Assembly: GCA_020444075.1 (NCBI GenBank)
Contig: JAHLLR010000023.1
Span: 1-64,000, forward strand
Length of the DNA: 64,000 nt
DNA from: Deltaproteobacteria bacterium
GTDB taxonomy: Bacteria; Desulfobacterota; Desulfobacteria; Desulfobacterales; Desulfosarcinaceae
Direction of reading: 5' to 3'
The position numbers and the translations under genes are program-made. The first letter of the stretch is position 1. The number at the start of each line of letters is the position of its first letter. Shown piece by piece: positions 31,770 through 58,934 of this stretch. The notes beneath the pieces are model-generated. The model ran no database searches and was not told the DNA's origin. It saw only the letters and a list, made by a program, of their open reading frames with translations.

Positions 31770-31805
31770 CGGCGCCTCCTTTTGCTTTGTTGGGAGCAAG
31801 GGATA

Positions 31806-35009: not shown

Positions 35010-35055
35010 CAATCCCTCAATCCCTCAATCCCTGCTTTTTCAATCCCTCAATCTT
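35010..35055. repeat. Tandem octamer repeat across the stop of the debranching-enzyme gene
   Basis: Units of TCAATCCC recur three times in tandem at 35009-35032 and twice more near 35043-35055. The stop codon (35017-35019) is inside the repeat. An eight-base unit changes the frame when copy number changes. Confidence 0.65.
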
Positions 35056-41040: not shown

Positions 41041-41224
41041 CCATGGCGTATAATATAATACGTGTTTTCATTGGATAAAGGCTGGCCAGGGATTATGCGG
41101 CGGCACCAACGGCGAAATTGACAAAATCCGATAATCTCATTACTGTTCTGAAGACAGCAAGGTAACGGCAGAATTCAAAAATTCGTTTTTTTCCGTCCCA
41201 CCCCCATCATTGAACGAGGAACAT

Positions 41225-42004
41225 ATGACCAAGGAAGCGGTAGCCATATACTGGGATTTCGAAAACCTGCATGCCAGCATCTTCGATGCCCTCAATGGCA
41301 GCGGCAGCTATCCGAAGCCGGCCAACCGGAATCGACAGCAGGAGGTGCTGGTGGACGTTCAGGGCGTCTACGATTTTGCCACCACTTACGGGAATGTGGC
41401 CATCAACAAAGCCTACTGCAACTGGCACTGGTTTACGCGGTATCGCCAGAGCCTGCTCAAATGCGCCGTGGAACTGATCCAGCTTTTCCCCCCCGGCGCC
41501 CAGGCCAAAAACGGGGCGGACATCAAACTCTCCCTGGACGCGGTGGAGGATATCCTGCGCTTTCCCCACATTTCGTCGATCATCGTCGTTGGCGGGGACA
41601 GCGACTTCATCCCTCTGGCCCAGAAACTCAAAGCCGCCGGCAAGGATCTCATCGGGGTGGGATGTAAAAATGCCACCAACCGCCATTGGGCCAACAGCTG
41701 CTCGGATTTCAAATATTACGAAACCTTCGCCCTTGAACCGCAGGACGAAGAAGAAGAGACGGAAACCGCCACGGTCAAGGATGCCGCCGAACTGATCACC
41801 AAGGCCATCAAACAGATCTCCTTGAGGAACGGCGACAAATGGGTGCTCAAGGCCGCCATCCGGCCGGTGGTCAAACGGCTGGACCCGACCTTCGACGAAG
41901 CCAGCTACGGCTGCCGCAGCTTCGCCGACCTGCTGAAAAAACACAACGACAAATTCCAGATTGAACGGGGCCAGCACGACCATCTGGTGTGCCTGATGGA
42001 ATAG
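41225..42004 (+). CDS. NYN-domain ribonuclease with C-terminal LOTUS/OST-HTH domain
   Basis: 259 residues; ATG at 41225 follows a GAGGA site. The NYN (PIN-like, LabA/DUF88) domain covers about 1-165 with conserved acids Asp11 (IYWDFEN), Asp99 (NGADIKLSLD), Asp125 and Asp127 (GGDSDF). An acidic linker (EPQDEEEETETATV) leads to a C-terminal LOTUS-type winged helix at about 183-257 (WVLKAAIRPVVKRLDP, YGCRSFADLLKKHNDKFQI). Such proteins bind RNA through LOTUS and are predicted to cut it through NYN. A cupin gene follows closely. The RNA target is unknown. Confidence 0.9.
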   Translation: MTKEAVAIYWDFENLHASIFDALNGSGSYPKPANRNRQQEVLVDVQGVYDFATTYGNVAINKAYCNWHWFTRYRQSLLKCAVELIQLFPPGAQAKNGADIKLSLDAVEDILRFPHISSIIVVGGDSDFIPLAQKLKAAGKDLIGVGCKNATNRHWANSCSDFKYYETFALEPQDEEEETETATVKDAAELITKAIKQISLRNGDKWVLKAAIRPVVKRLDPTFDEASYGCRSFADLLKKHNDKFQIERGQHDHLVCLME

Positions 42005-42024
42005 CCCAGGTCCGAAGGAAAACC

Positions 42025-42396
42025 ATGCCCACCAAAATCAACGGTCCGAGCATCATCGACGCGGCAGGCACCAGGCCCAAACGCATCGAAGAATTTATCG
42101 GGAAGGTCAATTCCGGCACCGGGGCGCTCAGCGTCGCCCGCATGATCTCTCCACCCGGATGGCGGGAGCCGGGGCAACGACCGGCGTTCGACGAATATAC
42201 CGTCGTCCTCAAGGGACGGCTGCGGGTGGAATCGGAAGCGGGCACGCTGGATATCCGGGCCGGCGAGGCCGTCATCGCCCATGCCGGTCAGTGGGTGCGC
42301 TACAGCACCCCGGAACCGGAAGGCGCCGAGTACATCGCCGTCTGTCAACCCGCCTTTTCGCCGGAAACCGTTCACCGGGATGATGAAGTTGCCTGA
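42025..42396 (+). CDS. Small cupin-domain protein
   Basis: 123 residues; GAAGGAA precedes the ATG at 42025. A single conserved beta-barrel is seen: PGWREPGQRPAFDEYTVVLKGRLRVES, then IRAGEAVIAHAGQWVRY. The expected metal-binding His are partly replaced (Phe-Asp-Glu-Tyr where HxH-type residues are usual), so it may not be a metalloenzyme. It follows the NYN gene by 20 bases and precedes a small membrane protein, suggesting one transcript. Role unknown. Confidence 0.85.
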   Translation: MPTKINGPSIIDAAGTRPKRIEEFIGKVNSGTGALSVARMISPPGWREPGQRPAFDEYTVVLKGRLRVESEAGTLDIRAGEAVIAHAGQWVRYSTPEPEGAEYIAVCQPAFSPETVHRDDEVA

Positions 42397-42455
42397 ATAC
42401 GTTCTGGAATGGATTGCATCAAAACGCTATCAATTGCCGCGCCAAAAGGAAAGAC

Positions 42456-42905
42456 ATGAAAAATATATTGTTTCTGGCACTGGCCTTCTGCGTGGGCGGC
42501 CTGCTGCCTGTCCAGGGTTCCATCAACGCCCACCTGAGCAAGAGCCTCAACCACCCGCTTCAGGCCACGTTCATCTCTTTTTTCGGGGCTATCATCTTTC
42601 TCATTATCCTGCTTGTGGCGCTTAACCCGCCATTGCCGTCGGTTTCTCAACTCAAATCCACCCCGGCCTTCTATTTCACCGGCGGCATCTACGGGGTTAT
42701 TTTCGTCACCACCATCCTGATGCTGGCACCGCGCATCGGCATTGCCAATACGTTGGTGGCCACCATCATCGGCCAGCTCGTCATCTCGGTGATTCTGGAT
42801 CACTTCGGCGTTTTCGGCCTGCTGCGGCACCCGGTAAACGGATTCCGCCTGCTGGGATGCGTGGGATTGCTGGTCAGCCTCTACCTGATTCAAAAGTCCG
42901 GCTGA
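42456..42905 (+). CDS. DMT-superfamily membrane protein (YdcZ/DUF606 type)
   Basis: 149 residues, five hydrophobic helices. The N-terminal LALAFCVGGLLPVQGSINAHLSKSL and the TFISFFGAIIFLIILL helix match the DUF606 small transporters, which act as pairs or dimers. AAAAGGAAAG precedes the ATG at 42456; the longer frame upstream is not supported. The substrate is unknown. It is followed 18 bases later by the PHP gene. Confidence 0.86.
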   Translation: MKNILFLALAFCVGGLLPVQGSINAHLSKSLNHPLQATFISFFGAIIFLIILLVALNPPLPSVSQLKSTPAFYFTGGIYGVIFVTTILMLAPRIGIANTLVATIIGQLVISVILDHFGVFGLLRHPVNGFRLLGCVGLLVSLYLIQKSG

Positions 42906-42923
42906 GAAACGGTTAAAGGCCGC

Positions 42924-43493
42924 ATGATGCTGCAACAGGATTTGCATATTCACACCACCTATTCGACAAGTGATTCTTCCGTCGTACCCGAACAGACCGT
43001 TGCCCTGGTCGCTGCGGTCAACCATGCCAGGGTTGTGGGAATCAGCGACCACCTGGAGAATCTGTTGGATGGGATCTTCGATATCTATGCCGGGGAAATC
43101 CGCCAGGTCGGGTTAAAGGTCGGCGTTGAAGTGGACGGGCATTCCTGGGTCGCCGAAGCCACCGGCTGCGATGTCGATTATTATCTCTTCCACTGTCGGG
43201 ATCAGGATGCCGATTATCGTTCACTGGACCGGCTGCTCGCCACCGGCAGGCCGGTCATTGTCGCTCATCCCAACGCTTTATGCACCGACCTGAGCCGGGT
43301 ACCCACCGAGTGTCTGGTTGAAATCAACAACCGCTATGTCTGGCGAACCGACTGGAAACAATTTTACGGCCCTTTCAAAAATCGCTTCAAATTCGTCATC
43401 GGCTCCGACGCTCACCAGCCGAATTGGCTCGGTCAGGCGGCTGCTCACTTTGCCGCTGCGCAGCTCGGTATAAAAGAGCATCTGGTCTTCTAA
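42924..43493 (+). CDS. PHP-domain phosphoesterase
   Basis: 189 residues. Metal-binding motifs of the PHP fold are all seen: DLHIHTTYS, GISDHLE, GVEVDG, IVAHPNA and GSDAHQP. Members hydrolyse phosphoesters such as histidinol phosphate or oligonucleotide ends; this short version cannot be assigned a substrate. A second ATG follows immediately. The last four bases overlap the end of the convergent SDR gene. Confidence 0.85.
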   Translation: MMLQQDLHIHTTYSTSDSSVVPEQTVALVAAVNHARVVGISDHLENLLDGIFDIYAGEIRQVGLKVGVEVDGHSWVAEATGCDVDYYLFHCRDQDADYRSLDRLLATGRPVIVAHPNALCTDLSRVPTECLVEINNRYVWRTDWKQFYGPFKNRFKFVIGSDAHQPNWLGQAAAHFAAAQLGIKEHLVF

Positions 43494-44449
43494 CCGGCTG
43501 CCAGTTCCTCCAGCCCCTTTTCACGAGATACATGGCCCCGGTATCCCAGTTCCCGCCGGGCCTTCGAATCGCCGACGGTGACCTCTCCGCCGATGAGGGC
43601 CAGGTGAGCCCGGGTGATCGGTGGTGCCCAGGAAAAAGGCATACCCTCCAAAACTGCCGCCATACGCCACGCCAGCCATCGAGGCAGACTGACCGATCCG
43701 GGTTTCACACCCTGAGTTGCCAAAAGGCCGGTGAGAAACTGCCTGAATGTAACGGGTGGATCGCCGTCGGTCAGGAAATAGGCCTGGCCAGCTCGGCCGT
43801 GCCGGATGGCCAGGATGGCACCTTCACAGACGTTGCGCACATGGCAGGTGGCGTAAGAGTAATTTCCGCGATCGATCCATATGAACTGCCGGCGCTTTAC
43901 CGCAGCCACGACAGTGGGAAGGAAGGTGGCGTCCCCGACGCCCCAGATACATGGCGGACGAACTGCAACAGCAGAAAAGCCGGTGCTGTTTGCCCCCAGT
44001 ACAAGTTTTTCGGCTTCGGCCTTGGTACGGCAGTAGGTCCCGAAAACACGCGGCGGGTAGGGCCGGCTTTCATCGGCCTGTATCACCGGATGTCCATCGG
44101 AGACCACCGCTGCGGCACTGATAAAGACCAGTCGGGGGATGCCGACGGCCTTTGCAGCCTCGATGACGCACCGGGTACCATGGATGTTGACCGTTTCCAT
44201 CTCCTTACAACGGCCGAAAAAAGCCATCACGGCGGCACTGTGCACGACCGCGCCACAGCCGCGCATTCCGGCCCGCATCACCTCGATCTCGGCAAGATCG
44301 CCGGATACAGGCTCCGCACCAGCTGCCCGCACCACTGCTTCCGCACGGTCGGAGCGAACCAGTGCACGGACGTTGTCTCCGCCCGCCACAAGCATCCGGA
44401 TCAGATTCCTTCCCACGAAACCGGACCCGCCGGTGACGAATACGTTCAT
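43490..44449 (-). CDS. Extended short-chain dehydrogenase / NAD-dependent epimerase-type protein
   Basis: 319 residues. The Rossmann loop VTGGSGFVGRNLIRML is at the N-terminus, and the catalytic YCRTKAEAEKLV (YxxxK) is present with an upstream SAAAVVSDG. The closest broad types are 3-beta-hydroxysteroid dehydrogenase/isomerase-like or NAD-dependent epimerases acting on sugars or lipids; the substrate is unknown. AGGAGAGGA precedes the ATG. Its 3' end overlaps the convergent PHP gene by four bases. Confidence 0.87.
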   Translation of the reverse strand: MNVFVTGGSGFVGRNLIRMLVAGGDNVRALVRSDRAEAVVRAAGAEPVSGDLAEIEVMRAGMRGCGAVVHSAAVMAFFGRCKEMETVNIHGTRCVIEAAKAVGIPRLVFISAAAVVSDGHPVIQADESRPYPPRVFGTYCRTKAEAEKLVLGANSTGFSAVAVRPPCIWGVGDATFLPTVVAAVKRRQFIWIDRGNYSYATCHVRNVCEGAILAIRHGRAGQAYFLTDGDPPVTFRQFLTGLLATQGVKPGSVSLPRWLAWRMAAVLEGMPFSWAPPITRAHLALIGGEVTVGDSKARRELGYRGHVSREKGLEELAAG

Positions 44450-44490
44450 CTGTCCTCTCCTGATTTACCCGTCGGATCAGTTTGTCAGTA

Positions 44491-44748
44491 TTATGCTGTA
44501 CGCTCAGCTAAGGAAACCATATGAATTCCGAGCGGATTCATATCCACGGCGCCTATGGATATCAACAGGACGGGCATCCCGGACGAAAGCCGGTACCCTT
44601 TTAGGCTTACGACCAGGGTCATCGATTGACCGGTAATGGCCCGAAAACTGGAAATCGTCAGGATCTCCCAAAAAAGTGGAACCGGAGCAAGGGGTAGTGC
44701 GAGGGGGCCGTTCACGGGGTGTGACCGGCTGGACAACTGAGTGTCCAT
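44491..44748 (-). CDS. Possible small protein between GNAT and SDR genes
   Basis: A frame of 85 codons from an ATG with GGAG six bases upstream, in the 396-base gap between two minus-strand genes. The sequence has mixed hydrophobic and polar character (EILTISSFRAITGQSMTLVV, then SGMPVLLISIGAVDM), which could form a small beta-barrel. I do not recognise a family, and it may be chance. The remainder of the gap holds nothing I can identify. Confidence 0.3.
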   Translation of the reverse strand: MDTQLSSRSHPVNGPLALPLAPVPLFWEILTISSFRAITGQSMTLVVSLKGYRLSSGMPVLLISIGAVDMNPLGIHMVSLAERTA

Positions 44749-44845
44749 TGCGTTGCTCCGGTGTAACAATAAAATAAGGATAGCCCCATCCGGAGTCAAG
44801 AATCCAGCATAAAAAGTGGACTGACAATGACAGCGACAAAATCGT

Positions 44846-45367
44846 TCAGAACGTCCTATCGGGGATTTCCCCCGCTGAAGATGCGGGAAGTTCCAATTCC
44901 ATGTAAACATCTGCCGATGCATATCCCGGGTCCACGGGTAACGGCCGGTGTACGAAACCCATGGACGCATAAAGCCCCAGGGCAGATTTCAGCTTTGTGT
45001 TCGAAACCAGGACAACCTTCTTCGCACCGATACTTCTGGCATAGTCAATCACCGTCTGCGCTAAAAGCCGTCCGATTCCACGTCGCCTCGCCCAGGGGGC
45101 GGTGACAAGTTTGGCAATTTCTACGGCTGGGCCGTCCCCATGAATGGCTGCACAGGTACCCACGACAGCTCCATCCTCGACAGCCAGAAATATTTGCCCT
45201 CCCCGCTCAATTATCGATTCACGCGGAAAGTTCAAATGCTTTTCGTCAGCATCCTCGAGCAAACCAAAAGATTCAAGCCATGCCCGATTGAGGGTCGTGA
45301 AATCCTGCCTGTACCGATCCTCAAAAGGGATGATTTTCAATTTTCCCATGCTTTCGTTCTCTGTCAT
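44846..45367 (-). CDS. GNAT-family N-acetyltransferase
   Basis: 173 residues (167 if the second ATG at 45349 is used). Acetyl-CoA-binding motif A is VTAPWARRRGIGRLLAQTVIDYARSIGA, followed by the C-terminal LYASMGFVHRP. The beta-4/alpha-3 region EIAKLVTAP is typical. The acceptor is unknown; nothing nearby suggests one. Confidence 0.88.
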   Translation of the reverse strand: MTENESMGKLKIIPFEDRYRQDFTTLNRAWLESFGLLEDADEKHLNFPRESIIERGGQIFLAVEDGAVVGTCAAIHGDGPAVEIAKLVTAPWARRRGIGRLLAQTVIDYARSIGAKKVVLVSNTKLKSALGLYASMGFVHRPLPVDPGYASADVYMELELPASSAGEIPDRTF

Positions 45368-45590
45368 TTTGCCAAGGGTGTTGAAAAACCAGTGCGCTTG
45401 GCCCTACGGCGTTAAAATTCGGTTCAACAGGCTCATCGATCACCCACAAACTCGGCTTTTTCGCCTACTTTTACCCTGGCAAAGGCTTGGAATTCTTCCG
45501 GTCATGATGCCATGAGATGGATGGGATGAACAGCAAAAAAAAAGGGAACCGAGATGAAAGCACCGATCGTTGAGAAGGCAGTTCATAAAC

Positions 45591-46721
45591 CTACGAATTG
45601 TCGCCCGGCATCCCCGGCGATGACGCATCAATATCGATAATTTTTTTCCCGTCCACATAATCTTTGGTGGTATATTGGGTAATATTTTGAATTTTTTGGA
45701 TATTTTTTCTCATTTTCTCGATATTGGTTTTTAACAGACTGTACAATCTGGACTGGCGTTGATCGCCACCTGAGGCGGGAACCAATTTTTCGGTGCACGT
45801 CAGCACCACCTGCAGCGGATTGTTGAGCTCATGCCCCACTGCACCGGCCAACTCCAATACCGACTGTAATTTTTCTTTGGCAAGGCGCTCCTTTTCAACC
45901 TGTTTGCTTTTGGATATATCCATGAAATAGCCCAGGGCAGCGCGTCGGCCTTTATACTGGATGGATGTTGCGGTTTCCAATATCCATTTGGTATTCCCGC
46001 ATTTATCATTGATACAAAATTCGTAGGGGAACAGCCGTTCGGCTTTCAACATCTTGATAAAATTCTCATTGACCTGGCGTCTATATTTTTTTTGGACGAT
46101 ATTGAGTGGATCCGCTCCGATGAGTTCATCTTCACTGTATCCCGTGATGCGCATAAATTCCGGGTTGACATACTTAAATGTGGAATCTTGAACAATGTAG
46201 CAACCGATCAGGGAATTGCGTATGCTCAGTTCAAATTCTTTCTCGGCCTGTCTGCCCCGGCTGTTGTCCCGGATAAACCCTTCAATGGCGATGGGTTGAC
46301 CCCCAGGATCACGCACAACCGTCCAGCGGTCATGCATCATGCGCAGGGAATCGTCGGGTTGCAAAAAACGGTATTCCACTTCTCCGCTTCTATTTTCAGG
46401 GCGTAGGGATAACGCTCTGGCAGCCTTGACTTTTTCACGGTCATCGGGATGGATATGCAGGAGGACACTTTTGGGGGACAGGGTTTTTACACCCTTTTCT
46501 TCCATTGCATACAGGGATAGAAATTGTTTGTTGAAAAATGAAAAGGTCTGCGATTCGATATCAAATTGGTAGATGGCGTCCGGGGACCGGTCGGCAAGCT
46601 GCTTGAAATCCTCTGTCAGCAGGCGAATGATCGTATTGTCTTTTCTTTTCGATGCCGATAGTTCAAGTTCCAGAGCCTTGATCTTGGCTTCCAATTCTTC
46701 ATAGGTTCGTTTTGTTGTCAT
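45591..46721 (-). CDS. PAS-PAS protein with HisKA helix but no ATPase domain
   Basis: 376 residues from an ATG with AGGTAGG. A short coiled coil (YEELEAKIKALELELSAS) leads to a PAS domain at about 45-160 with PAC (EVEYRFLQPDDSLRMMHDRW), and a second PAS at about 170-285 (IVQDSTFKYVNPEFMRITGYSEDELIG). Then comes a HisKA-like segment with the H-box GAVGHELNNPLQVVL. The chain ends about 60 residues later with KIIDID and a short tail, and no N, G1 or G2 box of HATPase follows. It may act as a phospho-acceptor or dimerising partner of another kinase. No downstream frame continues it. Confidence 0.78.
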   Translation of the reverse strand: MTTKRTYEELEAKIKALELELSASKRKDNTIIRLLTEDFKQLADRSPDAIYQFDIESQTFSFFNKQFLSLYAMEEKGVKTLSPKSVLLHIHPDDREKVKAARALSLRPENRSGEVEYRFLQPDDSLRMMHDRWTVVRDPGGQPIAIEGFIRDNSRGRQAEKEFELSIRNSLIGCYIVQDSTFKYVNPEFMRITGYSEDELIGADPLNIVQKKYRRQVNENFIKMLKAERLFPYEFCINDKCGNTKWILETATSIQYKGRRAALGYFMDISKSKQVEKERLAKEKLQSVLELAGAVGHELNNPLQVVLTCTEKLVPASGGDQRQSRLYSLLKTNIEKMRKNIQKIQNITQYTTKDYVDGKKIIDIDASSPGMPGDNS

Positions 46722-46941
46722 CCGCCTACCTGTAGGGTGTAGATTAATAGGGTGGCTCCGGGAGTGCACCGTTCCTGGATCATTGCAAGGACCGATAATC
46801 CCTGTCAAGGGGTACATGAGTATTGGCCCTGCCGATGTTCAGCATCCATTTGACCGTAGCTTGCGGGTAACCACCGCGGATCGTCAGCGCCTCCCAAATT
46901 AAGCGTTTATTGAGATATCCGAAAGCCACTCGCACCAACCC

Positions 46942-46984
46942 TGACCCGAAGATTACCATCCGGTAATCTTCGGGTCATTTTCTT
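46942..46984 (+). terminator. Terminator-like hairpin
   Basis: TGACCCGAAGATTACC and GGTAATCTTCGGGTCA (46942-46957, 46962-46977) pair fully over a four-base loop and are followed by ATTTTCTT. It reads as a plus-strand terminator, yet no plus-strand gene precedes it, so it may end an unannotated short RNA. Confidence 0.6.
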
Positions 46985-47018
46985 GTAAGGTTTGCCTGGT
47001 AGGGTACGGTCATAGGAC

Positions 47019-47096
47019 GGGCACCCGGTACGGGAGCCCAACCTCCTCCTAACCCTCCTTGCTAAACCGGGCCACCCCAAAGGTGGCCCGGTTTCC
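47019..47096 (+). ncRNA. Candidate small RNA or structured leader with anti-Shine-Dalgarno stretch
   Basis: A compact hairpin (GGGC-A-CCCG-GTA-CGGG-A-GCCC, 47019-47039) is followed by a pyrimidine stretch with CCTCCTCC and CCCTCCTT (47042-47060), then a strong stem (AAACCGGGCCACC / GGTGGCCCGGTTT, 47064-47094) ending in TTT. Hairpin, single-stranded CCUCC and terminator-like stem is the layout of some regulatory small RNAs. The U run is short, so a leader of the gene at 47138 is the alternative. Confidence 0.35.
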
Positions 47097-47137
47097 TGGA
47101 GCCCGGAAACAACAGACCTGGGAGAAAGGACAGTTCA

Positions 47138-47341
47138 ATGCGAACTCAATACGTCGACCAAATCGTAAATGAAATCCTGACCGACATGTCCCACCGGGAA
47201 AAGGATACCACCGGCCATAGGGATATCTCGTCTGTCCCTGGTTTCGAAGAAGCACTTGGGGAACTCATCCAAGAAGAAGATGAAACCAGTCGGGACGTCA
47301 TGCGCAGAATCTGGAATGAATTACAGGCTATTCATCGGTAG
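47138..47341 (+). CDS. Small acidic hypothetical protein
   Basis: 67 residues with AAAGGA ten bases before the ATG. Rich in Glu, Asp and Arg and predicted helical (YVDQIVNEILTDM, then VMRRIWNELQAIHR). No family recognised. It follows the candidate small RNA and is isolated between non-coding elements. Confidence 0.5.
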   Translation: MRTQYVDQIVNEILTDMSHREKDTTGHRDISSVPGFEEALGELIQEEDETSRDVMRRIWNELQAIHR

Positions 47342-48149: not shown

Positions 48150-48350
48150 TTAGACGACAGTAACGTTAGCTGCGGCAGGTCCCTTGGGTCCCTGTTCTAT
48201 ATCAAATGAAACCCGATCCCCTTCCTTCAGGGACCTGAAGCCGGTAGCATTGATTGCGGAATGATGAACGAAAACATCGGGGCCGTCTTCCTGCTCGATG
48301 AATCCAAATCCCTTGCTGTCATTGAACCACTTCACGATACCATTTGCCAT
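48150..48350 (-). CDS. Cold-shock domain protein
   Basis: 66 residues, the standard CspA length. RNA-binding motifs RNP1 (KGFGFI) and RNP2 (VFVHHSAI) are intact. It is a single-strand nucleic-acid chaperone. TAGGAGG precedes the ATG at 48350. A gene-free stretch of about 400 bases upstream would accommodate the long leader common in this family. Confidence 0.96.
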
Positions 48351-48764: not shown

Positions 48765-49241
48765 TCACTTATCCAATACCAATCTAAAAAAAGCACTATC
48801 GGCAGGTTTTATTTTTTCGGTTTGTTTTAAAAATTGGGAGTAATCCGGACGTCGGGGGAGATGAATCAAATGTGAAAGGCATTGACAGTCGGATGCCCCG
48901 AAGCCTTCAATAGGACGGGTAGCACCTTTCAGAGTGGAAATTTTTCCGGCCCAATCATGCTCCCTTTTGACTTCATCAGCAGTGACCCAAATTTCAATGG
49001 GGTGAAGGGCGTGTTTGATGTAATCCAGATGCCAGTGTGGGCGGGTCGATGGTTTCAAATGGTGGGCGAGTCTGGAATGCAGTCCACCAGGGCCGAACGC
49101 GCTGCCCACATATACCCAATATCCGGTGGTCAGGCTTATTGGGCCAAGTCTTCCCGCCACCGCACGGAAAGGAGTTCCGCATTTAAAAACCAAGGCATAT
49201 GTGCCCTGCTGTTTAGATAATGGTATCGAATGATTGGCCAT
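48765..49241 (-). CDS. GIY-YIG-like DUF123 protein
   Basis: 158 residues. Signatures of the DUF123 family: GTYALVF near the start, TTGYWVYVGSAFGPGGLHSRLAHHL and PHWHLDYIKHAL. The family is a divergent GIY-YIG nuclease relative, sometimes fused to endonuclease III or V; the function of stand-alone members is unproven. The C-terminal part adds DCQCLSHLIHLPRRPDYSQFL. It lies next to the tRNA-Asp scar but looks like core genome by composition. Confidence 0.85.
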   Translation of the reverse strand: MANHSIPLSKQQGTYALVFKCGTPFRAVAGRLGPISLTTGYWVYVGSAFGPGGLHSRLAHHLKPSTRPHWHLDYIKHALHPIEIWVTADEVKREHDWAGKISTLKGATRPIEGFGASDCQCLSHLIHLPRRPDYSQFLKQTEKIKPADSAFFRLVLDK

Positions 49242-49330
49242 CCAGACAACTTCTGATTATTGGAGTGTATTCAGACGGTTGACGTTTTCTTAGAATAATA
49301 GTGCTGGGTAAAAAAAACAAACTAATAAAA

Positions 49331-49359
49331 AAGGGCTCACAATTTCTTGTGAACCCTTT
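49331..49359 (-). terminator. Terminator of the former tRNA-Asp gene
   Basis: AAAGGGTTCACAA GAAA TTGTGAGCCCTTT on the minus strand, followed by TTTATT, ten bases after the CCA end of the tRNA fragment. It shows that an intact tRNA-Asp gene once read leftward here. Confidence 0.8.
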
Positions 49360-49368
49360 ATTATGTAA

Positions 49369-49416
49369 TGGCGGGAGCGACGAGACTCGAACTCGCGACC
49401 TCCGGCGTGACAGGCG
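49369..49416 (-). tRNA. 3' fragment of tRNA-Asp(GUC), probable attachment site
   Basis: On the minus strand the sequence reads anticodon loop CCTGTCACG, variable region, T arm with TTCGAGT, 3' acceptor strand and genomic CCA. The D arm and 5' half are absent; sequence to the right (49417 on) does not continue the tRNA. A 48-base tRNA 3' end next to a tRNA terminator is what integration at a tRNA gene leaves at the distal edge of an element. No intact tRNA-Asp is visible to the right inside the window. Confidence 0.75.
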
Positions 49417-49785
49417 CTTAAATGGCATTCTAACATTGTTATTTCAATATGTTACACAGGAACAGATGCTAATTCTTTGACGCTATTTGCACCCTATACG
49501 CACCCTTTTTCCACGATTTGCCAATCCACGCAAAAATGCGGTTCAATGGACAAGGAAAACGGTACGTAATTTTTATGTGCCAACCGCCCTACCCCTACTA
49601 AAAGATCCTCTACATGAAAAATACCACCAAATATGTACGTTTTCTATACCCTCACACTTACCAAACACCCAATATCCCACATAATTCCAATCCAGCCACA
49701 CATTGTGTGTGCTGGGTATCCTCACATTACGTTGCTATTGAAAGTAACACCCCTACCGAGATATAGGGGGCAACTATTTGATATG
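49417..49785. other. AT-rich gene-free junction beside the tRNA scar
   Basis: No supported gene. A minus-strand frame ending at about 49480 (KKGAYRVQIASKN) may be the tail of a lost integrase, but it cannot be extended convincingly. Confidence 0.35.
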
Positions 49786-49854
49786 TTAAGGTATACCTCG
49801 GTAAATGGGGTAGGATGCTTTGAAGTGTCCCTTTTGGGGGAGGAATAGTGGAGG

Positions 49855-49995
49855 GTATTGATGAACAAAGATTTCGATCTCGGCTTCCAGTGCCTGGGTC
49901 AACAACTTTCGGGCCCCCTGTCGCAAAATATCGGTGATCGGGTCATCCACAAAGACATCTGGTTTTTTCAGCTTGATTACGTTATCTTCACTCAT
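49855..49995 (-). pseudogene. IS256-family transposase, N-terminal remnant
   Basis: Begins MSEDNVIKLKKP and continues DPITDILRQGARKLLTQALEAEIEIFV, the conserved N-terminus of IS256-type transposases. Homology stops after about 47 residues; the DDE catalytic domain is missing. It marks past transposition at the edge of the island. Confidence 0.75.
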
Positions 49996-50115
49996 GGTGT
50001 GTGTATCCTTTCCAATTGTTGGCCGGTTGAATGCCTCGTAAACAGTCAACCGGGGGATACACCACCTACTTTCCTAAACACAACTTTTGATTATAGCTCT
50101 TGAAGGATAAGGTAA

Positions 50116-50631
50116 ATGGGAAATAAAAGTATGGGGAATAGTGACATGAATAAAGGATTATCCATTCCAGACGAGGTAAAAAATCATCCTGCATGGCATC
50201 GATTAGAGGATCAAGAAAAATGGTATGATGACAAAAGCGTTCACAACCAGAAATGGTACAAGCAATTAAAGCTGGCTCAGGTAGTCATAGCAGCTTTCAT
50301 TCCTTTAATCGCGCTAACTGATGTGCCCTTGGCCAAATATATTGTCGCATTATTCGGTGCAGTAATTGTTATCCTTGAATCCATCCAACAACTGTACCAG
50401 TTTCATACCCTTTGGACAGAATACAGATCAACGGCAGAGCATCTGAAACATGAAAAGTACCTTTTCCTTTCACTAAGTGGTCCATATCGGGAACTTGATC
50501 AAAACAATGCTTTGCTTGTCCTTGCCGAGCGCATTGAGGAACACATTTCGAAGGAACATGCCAAATGGATAGATGCTTCAAAGAAGACTGCATCGGAAAT
50601 CTTGAAGGACAAGACTCAGCCGACAAAATAA
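50116..50631 (+). CDS. SLATT/DUF4231 two-transmembrane protein (probable effector)
   Basis: 171 residues, AAGG-type ribosome site. Layout: an N-terminal cytoplasmic helix with WHRLEDQEKWYDDKSVHNQKWYKQ; TM1 at about 51-68; TM2 at about 73-95; then QQLYQFHTLWTEYRSTAEHLKHEKYLF and a C-terminal helix. That is the SLATT architecture (SMODS/SLOG-associating two-TM effector), Pfam DUF4231 type. Known SLATT proteins are predicted membrane-disrupting effectors in nucleotide-signalled conflict systems. It is first of three same-strand genes; the next ATG is 33 bases after its stop. Function here is inferred. Confidence 0.82.
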   Translation: MGNKSMGNSDMNKGLSIPDEVKNHPAWHRLEDQEKWYDDKSVHNQKWYKQLKLAQVVIAAFIPLIALTDVPLAKYIVALFGAVIVILESIQQLYQFHTLWTEYRSTAEHLKHEKYLFLSLSGPYRELDQNNALLVLAERIEEHISKEHAKWIDASKKTASEILKDKTQPTK

Positions 50632-50664
50632 TGAGTGGCCTATATATTGGTATGGGATCTTTTT

Positions 50665-51996
50665 ATGCCGAATCCTGAACATGTAAGAATCCTCAAGAGC
50701 GGAGTTGACGCTTGGAATCTGTGGAGGTCTCAGAATCCCGAGATCCGCCCCGATCTTCGTGAGATAGACCTGCATGACACCAACCTATATGGAACAGATA
50801 TTGATCCTTTCCTGAGCCACATCAACCTCAAAGACGCCGTAATGTTCAACAGCAACCTGAGAAACGCTAACCTAACCAGAGCGAACCTTGAAGGGGTTGA
50901 CTTAAGAAAAAGTGATCTGCGTCAAACGAATCTTCGTGAAGCCACACTTGACCGCAGTTTACTGATGAATGCTGACTTCGGCGATGCTGATCTTTCAGGT
51001 GCCATAATACTGGGTGCGAATCTTAAACAGATAAAACTTGATGGCGCTAAATTAAATGGTGCAGACATGAGCGGTTCGTACTTGGGTCGCGCCTCCATCG
51101 TAGGTACGGATTTCACCCATTGCAAACTTCGTAGAACCATTTTCAGAAGGGCTGATCTTACCAAATCACTATTTGTAAAAGCGCTCCTTACAGATGCTGA
51201 CCTTAGCGAAACCAAACTGATCAATAGCAACTTGAGTGGCGCCAACATGCGTGGTGCCTACATCATCAGGGCAAACCTTGCCGGTGCTGACCTCACAGGC
51301 GCCGACCTTTCGTTCAGTCGTCTTGTCGAAGTAAATCTGGATGGAGCCTCGCTCTCGGATTGCACAGTTTACGGAATCTCTGCATGGAATCTGAACCTGA
51401 GGGACACGGACCAGGCCAATCTTGTAATCACAAGCCCCGGTGAACCCACCATTACAGTGGACAACATCGAAGTGGGTCAGTTCATTTATTTGCTCCTGAA
51501 CAACCAGAAAGTGCGGGATGTAATAAACACCATAACGTCAAAGGCCGTGCTGATTCTCGGTCGTTTTACACAGGAGCGAAAAGCTGTTCTTGATGCACTG
51601 AGGACCAAGCTCCGTGAGTTGAACTATTTGCCTATCCTGTTTGATTTCGATAGACCTTCAAGTCGCAATCTCACGGAAACAATCTCAACGCTGGCTCACA
51701 TTGCAAAATTCGTCATAGCGGATATAACCGGCGCCAAAAGTATCCCCCAAGAACTGCAGCGTATCATCCCCAATCTTCCGTCCCTGCCGATACAACCGTT
51801 ACTACTTTCCACTGAAACCGAGTACGGCATGTTTGCCGACTTGTTGGATTACCCATGGGTGCTTGAACCATTCTCGTACGATAGTCTTGAGATGTTGCTT
51901 GACTCTGTGAACCAAAAAGTTATCGGACCTGCAATTGCAAAAGCCCAAGAGATTGAAGCCAAACGTAAATCAATTGAAGATGCGATGAATCTATAG
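50665..51996 (+). CDS. Pentapeptide-repeat protein with C-terminal Rossmann/TIR-like domain
   Basis: 443 residues from an ATG at 50665 that matches the start of the next gene (PNPEHVRILKSGVDAWNLW, then IRPDL). Residues about 31-250 are pentapeptide repeats (A[D/N]LxxA pattern), a right-handed quadrilateral helix. Residues about 292-415 form a Rossmann-like domain: KAVLILGRFTQERKAVLDAL, LPILFDFDRPSSRNLTETISTLA, KFVIADITGAKSIPQEL, and PWVLEPF. This resembles TIR-like or SLOG-like nucleotide-handling domains, but I see no canonical TIR catalytic Glu motif. A helical tail follows. Its pairing with SLATT and TIR genes suggests a sensor or signal-making role. Confidence 0.78.
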   Translation: MPNPEHVRILKSGVDAWNLWRSQNPEIRPDLREIDLHDTNLYGTDIDPFLSHINLKDAVMFNSNLRNANLTRANLEGVDLRKSDLRQTNLREATLDRSLLMNADFGDADLSGAIILGANLKQIKLDGAKLNGADMSGSYLGRASIVGTDFTHCKLRRTIFRRADLTKSLFVKALLTDADLSETKLINSNLSGANMRGAYIIRANLAGADLTGADLSFSRLVEVNLDGASLSDCTVYGISAWNLNLRDTDQANLVITSPGEPTITVDNIEVGQFIYLLLNNQKVRDVINTITSKAVLILGRFTQERKAVLDALRTKLRELNYLPILFDFDRPSSRNLTETISTLAHIAKFVIADITGAKSIPQELQRIIPNLPSLPIQPLLLSTETEYGMFADLLDYPWVLEPFSYDSLEMLLDSVNQKVIGPAIAKAQEIEAKRKSIEDAMNL

Positions 51997-52026
51997 CCCA
52001 CACGTTTAATATAATGAGGTTTAGGT

Positions 52027-53331
52027 ATGGCTAACCCAGAGCATGTTGAGCTCCTGAAACAGGGTGTCGAAGCCTGGAATCGGTGGAAAGATGAACATCA
52101 GAAGATCCGGCCTGATCTATCAAACACAAGCCTCAATGGCTTGGACTTATGCAATTATGAGCTAAGTGAGGTGGACTTTAGAGGTGCCAACCTTCAACGA
52201 GCAGACCTCAGGGAAGCTAACTTGTTCCGATCCCAACTTTATTCAGCCAAACTCAGAGGTGCAAATCTAAGTTCTGCAAATCTGCGAGAGGCAAATCTTA
52301 GGGAAGCGGATCTCTCAGAGAAAGTTGATTTAAGACATGCTAATCTCTTCAAGGCCGACCTCAGTTATGCAATTCTAAATGAAGCAGATTTAAGAAACGC
52401 AGATCTTAGAGGTGCGAAATGCATTATGGCATCCCTTAAAAAAACTCAACTTCAAAATGCACTATTCACTGGGGGTGACTTTGGTGGAGTTGACTTCGAT
52501 GGAGCAGGGTTCCAAGAGGCAGATTTTTCAGCAACAGACCTGAGTAATGCATACTTTGGGAATATTGACCTCAGAGGTTCTGATTTTCATTCGACAAATC
52601 TTAGCCAAGTAAAGTTTGATGATGCAGATTTAACTAATTCCACAATGGGTCTAACTGTGTTGGTGAATATGGATTTAACTAATGTTAAAGGTCTTGAACA
52701 TATTAAGCATCTTGGTCCATCCAGCATTGGGATTGATACTATCTACAAATCGAGAGGTCAAATCTCTGAGACTTTTCTCCGTGGCTGTGGCGTCCCTGAA
52801 AACTTTATTGTTTACATGAAGTCCCTCACCATGAATCCTATTGAGTATTTTTCCTGTTTCATCAGTTATAGCCATGAGGATAAATCGTTTGCCAGAAGGC
52901 TTCATGACTCACTGCAAGGACGGGGCATTCGTTGCTGGCTAGACGAAAAGCAGTTACTGCCCGGTGATGACATCTATGAACAGGTTGATCGTGGCATCAG
53001 GATGTGGGACAAAGTTTTGTTGTGCTGTTCAAAGCATTCCCTAACCAGTTGGTGGGTGGACAATGAGGTTGCGACTGCATTCAGCAAAGAGCAGAGGCTC
53101 ATGAAGGACCGAGGCAAGAAGGTTCTGTCTCTGATCCCATTGAATCTCGACGGCTTGATGTTCAGTGATGAATGGACCAGTGGGAAGAGCCAACAGATCA
53201 GGGAACGACTTGCAGCTGATTTTACAGGGTGGGAAACCAACAACGCAAAGTTTGAAGATCAGTTTGAGCGGGTGGTGAAGGCGTTGCAGACCGAAAGAGC
53301 AAGGGAAGAAGCTCCGATAAGTAGGTTGTGA
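52027..53331 (+). CDS. Pentapeptide-repeat protein with C-terminal TIR domain
   Basis: 434 residues. It shares its N-terminal NPEHV-LK-GVEAWN-W module with the preceding protein. Pentapeptide repeats span about 31-220. A conserved linker (GPSSIGIDTIYKSRGQ, then FLRGCGVPENFI) precedes a TIR domain at about 274-375: CFISYSHEDKSFARRLHDSL, IRCWLDEKQLLPGDDI, VLLCCSKHSLTSWWVDNEV. Glu347, in the SWWVDNE motif, is the position of the catalytic Glu of NAD-cleaving TIRs. It starts 30 bases after the previous stop. TIR proteins beside a membrane effector are typical of bacterial antiviral systems. Confidence 0.88.
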   Translation: MANPEHVELLKQGVEAWNRWKDEHQKIRPDLSNTSLNGLDLCNYELSEVDFRGANLQRADLREANLFRSQLYSAKLRGANLSSANLREANLREADLSEKVDLRHANLFKADLSYAILNEADLRNADLRGAKCIMASLKKTQLQNALFTGGDFGGVDFDGAGFQEADFSATDLSNAYFGNIDLRGSDFHSTNLSQVKFDDADLTNSTMGLTVLVNMDLTNVKGLEHIKHLGPSSIGIDTIYKSRGQISETFLRGCGVPENFIVYMKSLTMNPIEYFSCFISYSHEDKSFARRLHDSLQGRGIRCWLDEKQLLPGDDIYEQVDRGIRMWDKVLLCCSKHSLTSWWVDNEVATAFSKEQRLMKDRGKKVLSLIPLNLDGLMFSDEWTSGKSQQIRERLAADFTGWETNNAKFEDQFERVVKALQTERAREEAPISRL

Positions 53332-54027
53332 TGAAATGCCAGATCTTGATATCACTTCTGGGCACATTCGTTATTACGATTGTACCGGAGTCACCCTACA
53401 ACTCATCAGGACAAGACTTTCTTGAGCTGACAATCCCGAATTGTGCTATCTGGACTCTGGCCGCCTTGAGAATAGTTTCAATGCATCACCACGCGACAGA
53501 TTTATCAGAAATGTTCATTGCCTGGTGTGCAACCAATACCCACCCAAGATTTCACATGACCGCAATATATAGTGGTGCTTCGAATTAGTCCATTATCCGC
53601 ATACTGGCAAGCTGTACGTAAGTTTTACAAGCACAAATAGCTTCAGTTCTTGTGATCTATCCTGCACCTCCCCCTATCAGAATTCATTTCTCACGACGCA
53701 TACAAAATCACGCCGTGTAATTCCAAATGCGGATCTCCAGAAAGCTCAAGTTCACATTTTTTGACCGGGCAACCGAGTTTGTCATTCCGGGACGTAGCGT
53801 AGCGAAGATCCGGAATCCAGGAAGGTTCATGGGGGGTGCTGGATTCCCGCTTTCGCGGGAATGACACCAAAGAAAGACCGGCTTGAGCTTTATAGATAAC
53901 CGTAATCCCAAATTATTTCGGTTTGAGGTAGGAAGCAGAGTCGTCAATCGATTTAATGAACCGTGCTCACTCTTCTTTTCCGATGCCTAACACATGGTGT
54001 GAACCGCCGCATTTGAAGGTGAGAAAA
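53332..54027. other. About 700-base gene-free stretch between island genes and the Ldh2 gene
   Basis: An 86-codon frame overlapping the TIR stop (53328-53588) has weak coding character. The rest contains a palindromic repeat (53781-53865) and no gene I can support. Confidence 0.5.
53781..53865. repeat. Palindromic GTCATTCC/GGAATGAC element
   Basis: GTCATTCCGG ... CGGAATCCAG on the left pairs with CTGGATTCCCG ... CGGGAATGAC on the right, giving a long imperfect hairpin. This type with GTCATTCC ends is widespread in proteobacterial genomes; only one copy is seen in this window. Confidence 0.7.
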
Positions 54028-55041
54028 CTATTGTGCCAGCAAACGAAGCTCTTCCAGCAATGTTTTATCGATATCCATTTCCCCCGAGGACATACACCGT
54101 TTTTGATTGGTATGCCCTCTGTCCCCCGGGATCTGAACTTCTGAATAGCCTTCCGCAGGCGGTAAGAATCGAATCGTAGCACACATATCGGATACATTCT
54201 GCTTGAAGAGTGACACATCGACGAAACTGCCGACATCGATTCCGATCATCAAAAATCCATATTCCTCCGGATTCCAGCCGGATGATTGCTCCGTGCTCAG
54301 CAAGCTATGCACCAGCGGCCCGGTCAGGACCTCGATCAACATCATAATTCCATACCCTTTGAAGCCGCCGCCCATGGGCAATAGATTGGCCACGCCATTA
54401 TCGTTCAAGGCTTTACCGGCATCGGTGGTAAACAAGCCGTTTTGATCCAATGCCGCATTGGGTTTGAGTGGCAGTTTGTTCTCTTTGGCGGCTTTCAGTT
54501 CAAAAAAAGGAATTTCGGTTGTGGCCATATCCAAAAGAATCGGATCGGTAGCTGTGGGGATGGCATAGGCGATTGGATTGGTCCCTAACACGCCCTTTCT
54601 GGCACCATGGGGAACACAGCATTCCGTTCCACCATTGAACATACAGATGGCGATCATATCTCGCTTGGCCAATTCGGCCGACCACATGTTCAGCGTAATG
54701 ATGCCTGAGGAATTTCGAAAACCGACCGCTGCGATCCCGTTGTTTTTGGCTTTGCGCTCAATTTCATCGTGAATGGCTCGGATCTTTAATGATGGCGCCA
54801 GGCCGTTGAAATCAAAAATCGTAACACCTGCGTTGTCAACAAGGGTACCAACCTGTCTGCCATCATTGTTCTTCCAGACGTTCAGATCTGCTATGGCTTC
54901 CTTGATGGGTTGCATCCGTGGGGCCTTTCTCAGGTGGGATGCAACTATGCAATCGCTGAAGTACCGCGCCTCCTGATCGGATACATGCGTTGACGCTGCC
55001 GTTGCAAGCAGCCGTCCAACTTCATCGATGGTTATTTTCAT
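54028..55041 (-). CDS. Ldh2-family NAD(P)-dependent oxidoreductase, probable pyrroline-2-carboxylate reductase
   Basis: 337 residues of the malate/L-lactate dehydrogenase (Ldh2) fold. Seen: IVASHLRKAPR with the family His, VGFRNSSGI, GTNPIAYAIPT and LPMGGGFKGYGIMMLIEVLTG. Family members include malate, sulfolactate and delta-1-pyrroline-2-carboxylate (Pyr2C) reductases. Placement after both aconitase X subunits on the same strand (39 bases from the small one) favours Pyr2C reductase in hydroxyproline breakdown. GGAGGAAAA precedes the ATG. It could instead be a sulfolactate-type enzyme; the substrate cannot be read. Confidence 0.83.
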   Translation of the reverse strand: MKITIDEVGRLLATAASTHVSDQEARYFSDCIVASHLRKAPRMQPIKEAIADLNVWKNNDGRQVGTLVDNAGVTIFDFNGLAPSLKIRAIHDEIERKAKNNGIAAVGFRNSSGIITLNMWSAELAKRDMIAICMFNGGTECCVPHGARKGVLGTNPIAYAIPTATDPILLDMATTEIPFFELKAAKENKLPLKPNAALDQNGLFTTDAGKALNDNGVANLLPMGGGFKGYGIMMLIEVLTGPLVHSLLSTEQSSGWNPEEYGFLMIGIDVGSFVDVSLFKQNVSDMCATIRFLPPAEGYSEVQIPGDRGHTNQKRCMSSGEMDIDKTLLEELRLLAQ

Positions 55042-55080
55042 TTTTCCTCCGCAACTGCACCAGTGGTTGATCGGTGCAAT

Positions 55081-55494
55081 TTATCCCAAGATTTCAATGA
55101 TACCGCGATCACCATCGATCCGCAGTCGATCGCCGACTCGGATAAGGGCGAACAGATCCTCGGCAATGTCGGTTACCAACGGAACGTTGAGCACGGCAGC
55201 GGTAACCGCGGTTCGTGAATCCAGGCGCGGAAACACCAGCGCGGCAGGACCGCAGCCGGCTTCCTTGGCTGCATGGAAAAAAACCGACCATCCATTGGAG
55301 CCTTTGCTGCCGTCAAGGATCAGCACGCTGTCTTTGATGCTCATGCCTTCGAGGGGATGGCCAGTTTCAACCACCTTACCGGTGAAAATATCGACGCCAC
55401 CCCAACCGGTAATGGTCTGGCGGCTGATCATGGCAGGTCCCTCCGCAATTCCTCCCAGGGCCCCCCGACCGGTGATGATCTTTCTCGCCCTCAT
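55081..55494 (-). CDS. Aconitase X swivel (small) subunit, DUF126
   Basis: 137 residues. The ATG overlaps the stop of the large subunit at the shared A of TGATG, so translation is coupled. Family motifs: the SRQTITGWGGVDIFTGKVVETGHPLEG segment, the SKGSNGWSVFFHAAKEAG block with the conserved substrate-loop Ser, and DSRTAVTAAVLNVPLV. In aconitase X (AcnX) enzymes this is the equivalent of the aconitase swivelling domain. See the large subunit for function. Confidence 0.9.
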   Translation of the reverse strand: MRARKIITGRGALGGIAEGPAMISRQTITGWGGVDIFTGKVVETGHPLEGMSIKDSVLILDGSKGSNGWSVFFHAAKEAGCGPAALVFPRLDSRTAVTAAVLNVPLVTDIAEDLFALIRVGDRLRIDGDRGIIEILG

Positions 55495-56765
55495 CAACGC
55501 CCCTCCCAGTATCCACTGATTGCCGATTGCAGACATTCTTCCCATGAACCATAGAACAATTTGGCATTCGTTTCCTGTGCAGCGGAAATGCGCTGTTTGG
55601 ACGAATCATAAGCAGCGGTGCGCACCCCATCCGGGTAGCCGCGCGTAGATGGGCAACTGCCCGTCAAGAGTGTTGCTCCGGCCTTCTCAATCGTGTTGGT
55701 GTACCCGCAAATATCGGCCATATATTTTATTGAACCGGCCGTCCACAAATGAACGGTGGTGTCCGCATGAATGCGTTTGCCGTCCAAATAGGCAGCAATC
55801 CGCCGAAGTTCATCGATGTGGTAATGGGGACAGCCCAACGATACATAATCGATTTTTTGACGTCCGTGGCCGTTTAATTCCTCCATGGAAGCAGCCATAT
55901 CGATAGTGCCGATCGCAAGGGTTTGGTTCGGTTTTCGATGGTTCAGGGCTTGTGCGGATGTGCCTGCTTCGGGTGTGAGGCCGACGATATGACACAATTC
56001 CGTGCCTGCCGCGCAGGCCAAGGCGGCAGAAAACGCCTTCAGCTGAATGCTGTTGGGACGGGGGAAGTCCCCGATTAAGACCGGAACCGCATGGGGCGGC
56101 AGTTGGCGACCTATCGTAAACCCGAGAAGATCCCAGTCAGATACCGACTTCGGTGCGACGTTGACAGCAACCAGATCCGTACCGATACGGTTTTCGGGCA
56201 GATGATTGCCGGCCAGCGGCGTGCGGCCGCAGACCGCTGCACAAAAGCTGGCTTCGATGCCGTCTCCATTGCCGCAAGCGCCCCATACGGAGTTCATATA
56301 CAATACGGCGCTGGATTCACAGCTGACAAAATGCTCGCCCATGAGCGGTATGAATCCGGTCAGGTAGGGAATACAATTTCCGCTCAACACGACACCGGCA
56401 TCGACGAATCTCGAGAGAAAACGGGCATTTCGTGTCTTTTTATCAGGGGGCATCAGCATGCCATCCGGGACTTCGCTGCAATCCGCATCCACCCCGGAGA
56501 AACAGATACACTGGCTATCCATTGTTTCCAGGTTCACGGTTTCCGATGAGCATAGCGACATCTTTGAGAAAACAATGTCAAAATCATCGGATGAAACGAC
56601 ATCCAAATAGTGATGACTGCCGCAGAAAAGATCGGCCCAGGTGACCTTGCACAACGCCTCTGCGCCCACTATTCGCCCATAGCGGACGATCAATTCCATC
56701 GCCTTTTGCCTCACAGGACCCTCATAGCCGTCCAGAATCCCTTTTTCTTTATCGGACAACTTCAT
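55494..56765 (-). CDS. Aconitase X catalytic (large) subunit, DUF521
   Basis: 423 residues. AcnX binds an Fe-S cluster and dehydrates hydroxy acids. Seen: KAMELIVRYGRIVGAEAL, WADLFCGSHHYLD, the NSVWGACGNGDGIEASFCAAVCGRTPLAG block, VSLGCPHYHIDELR with conserved Cys, and LLTGSCPS. Characterised AcnX proteins include cis- or trans-3-hydroxy-L-proline dehydratases and archaeal mevalonate-5-phosphate dehydratase. With an Ldh2-family gene downstream, 3-hydroxyproline dehydratase is the better guess. First gene of a three-gene minus-strand operon. Confidence 0.9.
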   Translation of the reverse strand: MKLSDKEKGILDGYEGPVRQKAMELIVRYGRIVGAEALCKVTWADLFCGSHHYLDVVSSDDFDIVFSKMSLCSSETVNLETMDSQCICFSGVDADCSEVPDGMLMPPDKKTRNARFLSRFVDAGVVLSGNCIPYLTGFIPLMGEHFVSCESSAVLYMNSVWGACGNGDGIEASFCAAVCGRTPLAGNHLPENRIGTDLVAVNVAPKSVSDWDLLGFTIGRQLPPHAVPVLIGDFPRPNSIQLKAFSAALACAAGTELCHIVGLTPEAGTSAQALNHRKPNQTLAIGTIDMAASMEELNGHGRQKIDYVSLGCPHYHIDELRRIAAYLDGKRIHADTTVHLWTAGSIKYMADICGYTNTIEKAGATLLTGSCPSTRGYPDGVRTAAYDSSKQRISAAQETNAKLFYGSWEECLQSAISGYWEGR

Positions 56766-57331
56766 CGAATGTCGCTTTCTTTAAATCAAGGTTTTGAACA
56801 CGGATATGTGGGTTCACACAAATCGCTTTTTCATGGCAGTCCTTACCCGGGAGTTCCCCAGCGTTGTCACAAAAAATGATGACATTCGTTGTTTCGTGAA
56901 ACGTTACCTCAAGCCTGGGAAACAACCAACAGCATCATCTGTGTATGGTCGAATTTTTATGTGTGTTTTGCATGAAAAAGCAAGGAATTTAATTTGTTGG
57001 CCTCTGCTACCCAAGACAAGCCTATGAGATCCAGTTGTAAAATGAAAATTCTATGCACTCCCTGACAGATAAATTCCCTGGCAAGTAACATGAAATCTGA
57101 AGTCACACCAAAGATTGGTAATCTGTAATCTATCCTGCACCCAGCTTGTTCAATAAATATTGCACACCTGCAGAGCATCGATAAGCTTTACAAAGCTGCT
57201 CCGCGGCAGGTCACCATCCTGACCCACCGTAGTTACTTTTCCATCGATCCCTCCATGTCCCAACTCTCCGTTACCTGATCGTGCAAACTACCTTTGCGAG
57301 TTTGTTTAACCCTAAACCAAGAAGGTGGACC
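56766..57331. other. 566-base gene-free stretch
   Basis: No supported gene. Around 57170-57275 a short frame (QSIDKLYKAAPRQVTILTHRSYFSID) may be transposase debris, but the family is not recognisable. Confidence 0.4.
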
Positions 57332-57612
57332 ATGGCACCACTGCGTCAACAGATGATCAGGGAAATGGATTTAAAGAACCTTTCCTCAAACACCCGGCGT
57401 ACCTACCTTAGGGCCGTAACCGGTTTGGTTTGGCACTACCGGCAGTCGCGGGAAGCCATCACCAAGGAGATGATCGAGAATTACCTGCTGCATCTCAAAA
57501 CGAAAAGGGTAATGCGCCAGCCAGTTGCTGCCTATTTTTTACCTGCCTGCGATTTTTCTACAAACATATTTTAGGCCAGCAGATCAAGGTTGATTTCCGT
57601 CTAACCAAATAA
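57332..57612 (+). pseudogene. Tyrosine recombinase (integrase), frameshifted N-terminal remnant
   Basis: Begins MAPLRQQMIREMDLKNLSSN and continues TRRTYLRAVTGLVWHYRQS, the SAM-like N-terminal core-binding domain of phage/transposon integrases. After HLKTK the frame breaks, and homology resumes in another frame (EKGNAPASCCLFFTCLRFFYKHILGQ). It ends at 57612 with no catalytic domain. Dead by frameshift and truncation. Confidence 0.75.
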
Positions 57613-57847
57613 GCTTTCCCAACCATCCGGGCGATTCATAGTCCACATTCTACCTGGTCTTGTGAGGGTATTTCTTTCCGACCATCGATCAGATCCAAGC
57701 GAATTGGTAGGTTTTACCTATCGCCATACGGTCAATGGGCTCACATTGCAGGTACTATCAGCTGCTGATTATTGTTAAAAGTGTAATCTATAAACATTGC
57801 TTCCGAAAAGCATGAATCGGGAGATGCGAAGGCGGAGGATTCGATCA

Positions 57848-58924: not shown

Positions 58925-58934
58925 TGGTAGTGAT

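Follow-up and report, generated by a model that had tools for sequence, protein, structure and literature searches.

Positions 1–64,000 of contig JAHLLR010000023.1 (assembly GCA_020444075.1; G000:C18:1-64000), hereafter the window, carry part of a tRNA-Asp gene from a member of the Desulfosarcinaceae. The question raised by this locus is whether the partial gene marks the edge of integrated DNA and, if so, on which side the acquired DNA lies. The source genome (G000) is a 5.59-Mb assembly of 173 contigs, in which the contig concerned (C18) ends at 67740. Our analysis indicates that the partial gene is very probably the displaced-fragment end (attR) of a tRNA-Asp-targeted island that arrived by integrase insertion. 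The features of the locus are collected in Table 1.

Table 1. Features around the tRNA-Asp fragment, in window coordinates.
Feature	Position	Strand	Remarks
Downstream flank of tRNA-Asp common to congeners	28173-47341	.	In G012, G014, G022 and G023, none of them over the full range
Glycogen-debranching gene	35017-39333		Within shared flank
MFS gene	39622-41040		Within shared flank
NYN/OST-HTH gene	41210-42004		Within shared flank; in G012 and G014 only
Small gene	47066-47338		Within shared flank
Cold-shock-domain gene	48150-48350	-	About 1.0 kb from fragment; 0.93 kb from intact tRNA-Asp in G023
DUF123-domain gene	48765-49241	-	First gene on old-chromosome side; not adjoining tRNA-Asp in congeners
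Intrinsic terminator after tRNA-Asp fragment	49327-49358 (hairpin 49330-49359)	-	Sequence type as behind intact tRNA-Asp in G015, G017
3' half of tRNA-Asp(GUC)	49369-49415	-	47 nt; starts within 5' anticodon-stem arm, runs through CCA
Anticodon loop of tRNA-Asp fragment	49407-49413	-	Within 3' half
Inferred integrase crossover region	49407-49415	-	Identity with intact tRNA-Asp begins here; in G013, start of displaced fragment two bases further on
Three tandem 11-bp repeats (AGGGTGCGTAT, AGGGTGCAAAT, AGCGTCAAAGA)	49474-49506	-	Element side, 59-91 bases from fragment
Remnant repeat	49786-50100	-	Partial copies in G023, G012; last 54-55 bp = ends of own contigs C173, C107
Inserted cargo: consecutive DUF4231/SLATT, pentapeptide-repeat and pentapeptide-TIR genes	50116-53331	+	
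Ldh_2 and AcnX genes	54028-56765	-	Relatives at 66-68% DNA identity at other places in G012, G019
Truncated, frameshifted recombinase remnant, IS91-associated type	57281-57609	+	Matches G019 protein
M50 protease / outer-membrane efflux / RND block	57703-64000, on towards contig end 67740	+	Similar DNA in G019:C21, part in G023

Read on the minus strand from 49415 to 49369, the fragment (GCCTGTCACGCCGGAGGTCGCGAGTTCGAGTCTCGTCGCTCCCGCCA) begins with GCCTGTCACG and ends with CCCGCCA. It comprises, in this order, the inner (last) two bases of the 5' anticodon-stem arm, the GUC loop, the 3' anticodon arm, the T arm, the 3' strand of the acceptor and CCA, and its length of 47 nt corrects the 48 bases counted in the earlier note. 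The terminator behind it folds into a 13-pair stem followed by a T run, with a hairpin energy of -18.9 kcal/mol (z -7.0) that was equalled by none of 200 shuffled sequences. Within the 64-kb window ARAGORN predicted no tRNA gene, and cmscan returned no Rfam match at the gathering score. Taken as one unit of 89 bp (49327–49415), 3' half and terminator are 97.8 and 94.4% identical to the intact tRNA-Asp loci of G015 and G017, and 88 and 86% identical to those of G014 and G010. By eye, at least three unrelated terminators stand behind the same tRNA-Asp gene among the congeners. Since congeners have other terminators, the terminator of the window may itself derive from an earlier element, and incoming elements seem to bring tRNA-Asp a new terminator upon insertion.

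The missing part of the gene is found at the end of another contig of the same genome, C9, whose minus strand carries in succession a gene resembling lon by eye, tRNA-Val(TAC) and tRNA-Asp(GTC). This contig stops 7 nt short of the end of the tRNA-Asp gene, and holds the 5' half together with 40 nt of the 3' half. Identity with the fragment starts at 49415 and extends over 40 of 40 nt up to the end of C9 (E 5.4e-14), whereas the next-best match anywhere in the genome reaches 83% over 36 nt, within another tRNA gene on C26; the fragment is therefore not a product of chance. The repeat is present on no third contig among the 173, and a genome-wide search with a 43-nt pattern, allowing up to 3 mismatches, recovered the window copy only, the C9 copy being missed because C9 is too short for the pattern. 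When the 5' part from C9 and the 3' part from the window were joined in a script, a complete tRNA-Asp(GTC) of 77 bases was predicted, with all stems paired when G-U wobbles are counted; the unjoined pieces yielded no tRNA for the window and tRNA-Val only for C9 (all runs with linear topology). This bears out the description of the locus as a tRNA-Asp 3' fragment with its terminator and without its 5' half. The earlier note had also suggested looking for a tRNA-Asp with the same 3' bases further right in the genome: a second copy does exist, on C9, but its placement further right is not borne out, as C9 ends 7 nt early. We considered whether the 40-nt overlap with C9 equals the word length of the assembly, and ruled this out, as two other contig ends share 54–55 nt. 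Separately, the far end of C9 (L137) and contig C5 (G000:C5:1-54, L136) also appear by eye to end within tRNA-Leu-like genes, and C5 carries a 371-codon integrase frame directly beside that end.

To orient the fragment we turned to the relatives. A 240-base query from C9 (E ≤ 0.001) matched 28 of 30 genomes, the source genome included, in some of them via other tRNA genes only. Among the 29 relatives, an intact tRNA-Asp was identified in 25. The lon-side DNA, tRNA-Val and tRNA-Asp are conserved in relatives. DNA downstream of tRNA-Asp was read in nine congener loci (G012–G017, G020, G022, and G023); contig C304 of G019 begins within the tRNA region, and its downstream DNA lies outside these nine. 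Behind the intact tRNA-Asp, the genes found on the left of the window are collinear and in the same orientation in four of the nine loci (G012, G014, G022, and G023). A homologue of the small gene is located 0.8 kb after the CCA of tRNA-Asp in G012 and 3.8 kb after it in G022, and in G014 the NYN gene, at 9.6 kb, is the first shared flank gene; the MFS and glycogen-debranching genes then follow. The stretch at approximately 43.1–46.9 kb of the window has no protein-level match in these four loci. The collinear flank was not seen in the other five loci: in G020 the glycogen-debranching gene lies 7.8 kb from tRNA-Asp in the opposite orientation, and no flank genes occur within the approximately 11.5, 2.1, 7.3, and 2.4 kb read behind tRNA-Asp in G013, G015, G016, and G017, respectively.

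As the left genes follow an intact tRNA-Asp in congeners, the left side of the window is the downstream flank of tRNA-Asp, and the 5' half has been replaced from 49416 onward. The window can thus be oriented, with old chromosome to the left of 49327 and acquired DNA to the right of 49416. The proposal that the fragment is an integration boundary at the displaced-fragment edge, with the inserted DNA to its right, is accordingly upheld by the 40-nt repeat and the synteny of the left flank. Relatives with an intact tRNA-Asp in the syntenic position, and with no insertion, had been named as evidence that would speak against it. G012 shows exactly this arrangement, which is the ancestral state expected from an insertion and no refutation. 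The G023 locus is collinear too, and has a decayed integrase remnant beside its intact tRNA-Asp. The DNA on either side of the boundary is poor in GC (0.44–0.50 from about 45 to 54.5 kb), and composition is therefore no marker of it. Two other arrangements were rejected. An element on the left of the fragment conflicts with the syntenic left genes, and no integrase domain was found on C18. The DUF123-domain gene as an ancestral neighbor of tRNA-Asp is contradicted by a distance of more than 1 Mb on single large contigs of G012, G022, and G023.

In the model that we propose, the tRNA-Asp gene that follows lon and tRNA-Val was the target of a mobile element bearing its own copy of the tRNA-Asp 3' half. 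A tyrosine integrase would have inserted the element, and the strands would have been exchanged around the anticodon loop. On the C9 side the incoming copy would have made tRNA-Asp functional again, and the former 3' half with its terminator would have been pushed to the far end, as the attR in the window. Anticodon loops are a usual crossover place for tRNA-targeting integrases. The attP of tyrosine integrases that use tRNA genes holds a partial copy of the gene; after insertion, a complete gene stands at one end of the element, and the part that was originally there has moved to the opposite end (PMC4383910; PMC9897764). The Islander criteria comprise a displaced tDNA fragment, an intact tDNA on the same replicon in the correct orientation at 2–200 kb, and between them an integrase that is neither of the Xer nor of the integron type (PMC4383910). 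As in those islands, a displaced tDNA fragment and a probably regenerated intact tDNA mark the ends here, the fragment being 47 nt long with 40 of 40 nt common to the C9 tRNA-Asp as far as C9 reaches; the empty site that Islander also considers is best seen in G012, in which 0.8 kb separate the CCA of an intact tRNA-Asp from the first gene of the shared flank, and collinear loci occur in G023, G022, and G014 as well. In contrast to Islander islands as described there, the ends lie on separate contigs and the known part carries no integrase, for which reason the Islander integrase filter would reject this case (PMC4383910). The PYG1 island of P. yayanosii similarly has a partial and a complete tRNA copy with a direct repeat, of 44 bp there and at least 40 nt here; it differs in using tRNA-Gln, in its archaeal host and in being a delimited island of about 21.4 kb (PMC9897764).

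We infer that an integrase was the agent of the insertion and that the DNA between C9 and C18 forms one island. The two tRNA-Asp halves lie on different contigs of the assembly, and the interval between them is not closed. The element looks old: next to the boundary, cargo genes are interspersed with remnants of insertion sequences, and the 18.3 kb of C18 to the right of it contain no recognized tyrosine-integrase catalytic domain; the six PF00589 matches in the genome include none on C18 or C9. Searches of the genome by arm repeat, by the right end of C18 and by integrase did not reveal the continuation of attL, the right-end search returning the query itself, a match of 92% over 79 bases at the end of C74, and nine weak matches. 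We regard the locus as a genuine attR-type scar, left by a tRNA-Asp island that has either decayed or been assembled incompletely. Scars of this kind are common and well understood, and this is a further instance, with good comparative support.

Because the right side is acquired, the TIR module and its neighbors are to be read as cargo. The remnant repeat nearest to the boundary had been labeled IS256, which we could not confirm: it matched no Pfam family at E ≤ 1, and by eye no long transposase frame was recognized beside its copies in G023 and G012. In the three cargo genes, PADLOC recognized the TIR part only (best 2.1e-13) and the other two had no match. That the DUF4231/SLATT, pentapeptide-repeat and pentapeptide-TIR genes constitute an undescribed anti-phage defense system, delivered via a tRNA-Asp hot spot, is a tentative and rather doubtful reading. 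A dispersed repeat at 53472–53914 has partial copies at several places in the own and congener genomes, and a frame over part of it reads ...CHSRESGNP.... The M50/efflux block has long matches of more than 80% in two of 12 congeners (G019 and G023). Its left neighborhood differs in each of the three genomes, and the genes to its left in G019 are located on contig C107 of the source genome. From about 57.7 kb rightward the genes may thus be rearranged chromosome rather than island.

On the element side, the three tandem 11-bp repeats show 15 of 20 matches at lag 11, a value reached by 1 of 1000 dinucleotide shuffles, and judging from the sequence they may be candidate arm-type sites of the integrase. 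The same test on six other fragments gave 6 of 1000 for G013 and 60, 84, 572, 637, and 844 of 1000 for the rest; period-11/12 repeats were not significant in five of the seven fragments tested. On the attL side, 4 of 27 entries (25 genomes) scored 17 of 500 or lower, with about one expected by chance. L143 is the only one of the six other fragments to share words of at least 10 bases with the window repeats, which together amount to the 12-mer GGGTGCAAATAG. An arm-repeat search of the genome yielded only the window copy and three matches with 2 mismatches each, versus 2 for the reversed control.

The closest counterpart is found in congener G013. Here, the intact tRNA-Asp is followed after about 90 bp by the start of a 388-codon integrase frame pointing at the tRNA (L097:2136-3299), with a Phage_integrase domain (1.9e-19) and an Arm-DNA-bind_4 match below its cut-off (0.0079). 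Contig C197 (L101:10660-10800) carries a displaced 3' fragment of tRNA-Asp, followed by a terminator of its own, and the two element sides have the 23-mer TGACGGCTTTTTAGACGGCTTTT in common. The G013 element resembles that of the window in its tRNA, crossover region, displaced fragment with terminator and element-side direct repeats; it differs in its intact integrase frame, its repeat motif and its terminator, and in that a uvrA-like frame (by eye) follows the fragment instead of the flank of the window. In G023, a repeat similar to that of G013 and a 39-residue match to the G013 integrase lie beside the intact tRNA-Asp.

These observations allow the alternatives to be weighed. An assembly artefact, in which the repeat misjoined an element end to the tRNA-Asp flank, or a strain mixture, in which only part of the population carries the insertion, would be in keeping with both junctions lying on a short repeat inside which C9 stops, with the 173 contigs, and with the missing continuation of attL. 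However, the fragment can only be accounted for if the 3' half genuinely occurs a second time, preceded by foreign DNA; the assembly offers a single continuation behind the repeat (the syntenic flank), and the same kind of arrangement recurs in other assemblies; in a mixture, the insertion would still be real. We consider this explanation improbable. A rearrangement via the tRNA-Asp repeat or insertion sequences, which placed unrelated chromosome (57.7 kb on) beside the flank and involved no single island, is distinctly improbable, although the different neighborhoods of the M50/efflux block in G019 and G023, the presence of its G019 left neighbors on C107 and the IS91-type remnant at the seam would fit it. 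Rearrangement alone does not duplicate a tRNA 3' half, and it may well have come later, inside or beyond the island, limiting the extent of the island but not affecting the boundary. The bare fragment, with nothing further, would agree with a local duplication, or with a piece of a tRNA gene having been picked up by chance, no site-specific recombination being involved. As the genes downstream belong to the original locus, and G013 has both element ends and an integrase at the same tRNA, this is exceedingly unlikely.

The remnant at 57281–57609 had been cited in the earlier note as a dead integrase in support of the island. It lies on the element side and matches Phage_int_SAM_4 (2.1e-8), as the island's own, now dead, integrase might, yet this origin is very unlikely. 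Window positions 57329–57609 correspond, in two frames, to residues 1–94 of an intact 297-aa recombinase of G019 with SAM_4 and Phage_integrase domains, which is directly followed there by an IS91-type zinc-binding transposase domain (Zn_Tnp_IS91; one homologue examined), and the G013 tRNA-Asp integrase is only a distant relative (24.8% over 165 residues, E 0.002). No transposase is kept beside the remnant in the window, and tblastn with the G019 transposase piece matched only its own source. Given the pairing in G019, the remnant is poor evidence for a tRNA island and loses its value as support.

In wider collections, we scanned genome_contigs, in which 84,980 species are represented by one genome each, for a tRNA-Asp 3' half with a non-tRNA 5' neighbor. 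Five such fragments, preceded by unrelated DNA, were obtained in four contigs. The pattern requires the anticodon loop onward and forbids a G three bases before, by which about a quarter is missed by chance; as it fixes the start point, the shared start of the five fragments is not independent evidence. ARAGORN detected no intact tRNA in the stretches around them. By eye, four have their own hairpin-and-T-run terminators and the fifth is at a contig end. The fragment pattern had no match in viral_contigs. A 90-base query matched 43 phage-collection and 153 plasmid-collection records, of which 1 and 0, respectively, covered at least 80% of it; among the matches listed (ten per collection), nearly all cover the tRNA part only. 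The locus also suggests that tRNA-Asp is used repeatedly for integration within the Desulfosarcinaceae. In G025 and G027, tRNA-Asp is followed by partial copies resembling it, in which the anticodon loops are odd and a complete 5' end is lacking (L053, L059, and L071). A Desulfobacteraceae MAG (L145:633-2439) contains two tRNA-Asp 3' fragments at a distance of 1.76 kb from each other, with an open frame of 380 codons in the interval; they are perhaps tandem integration scars.
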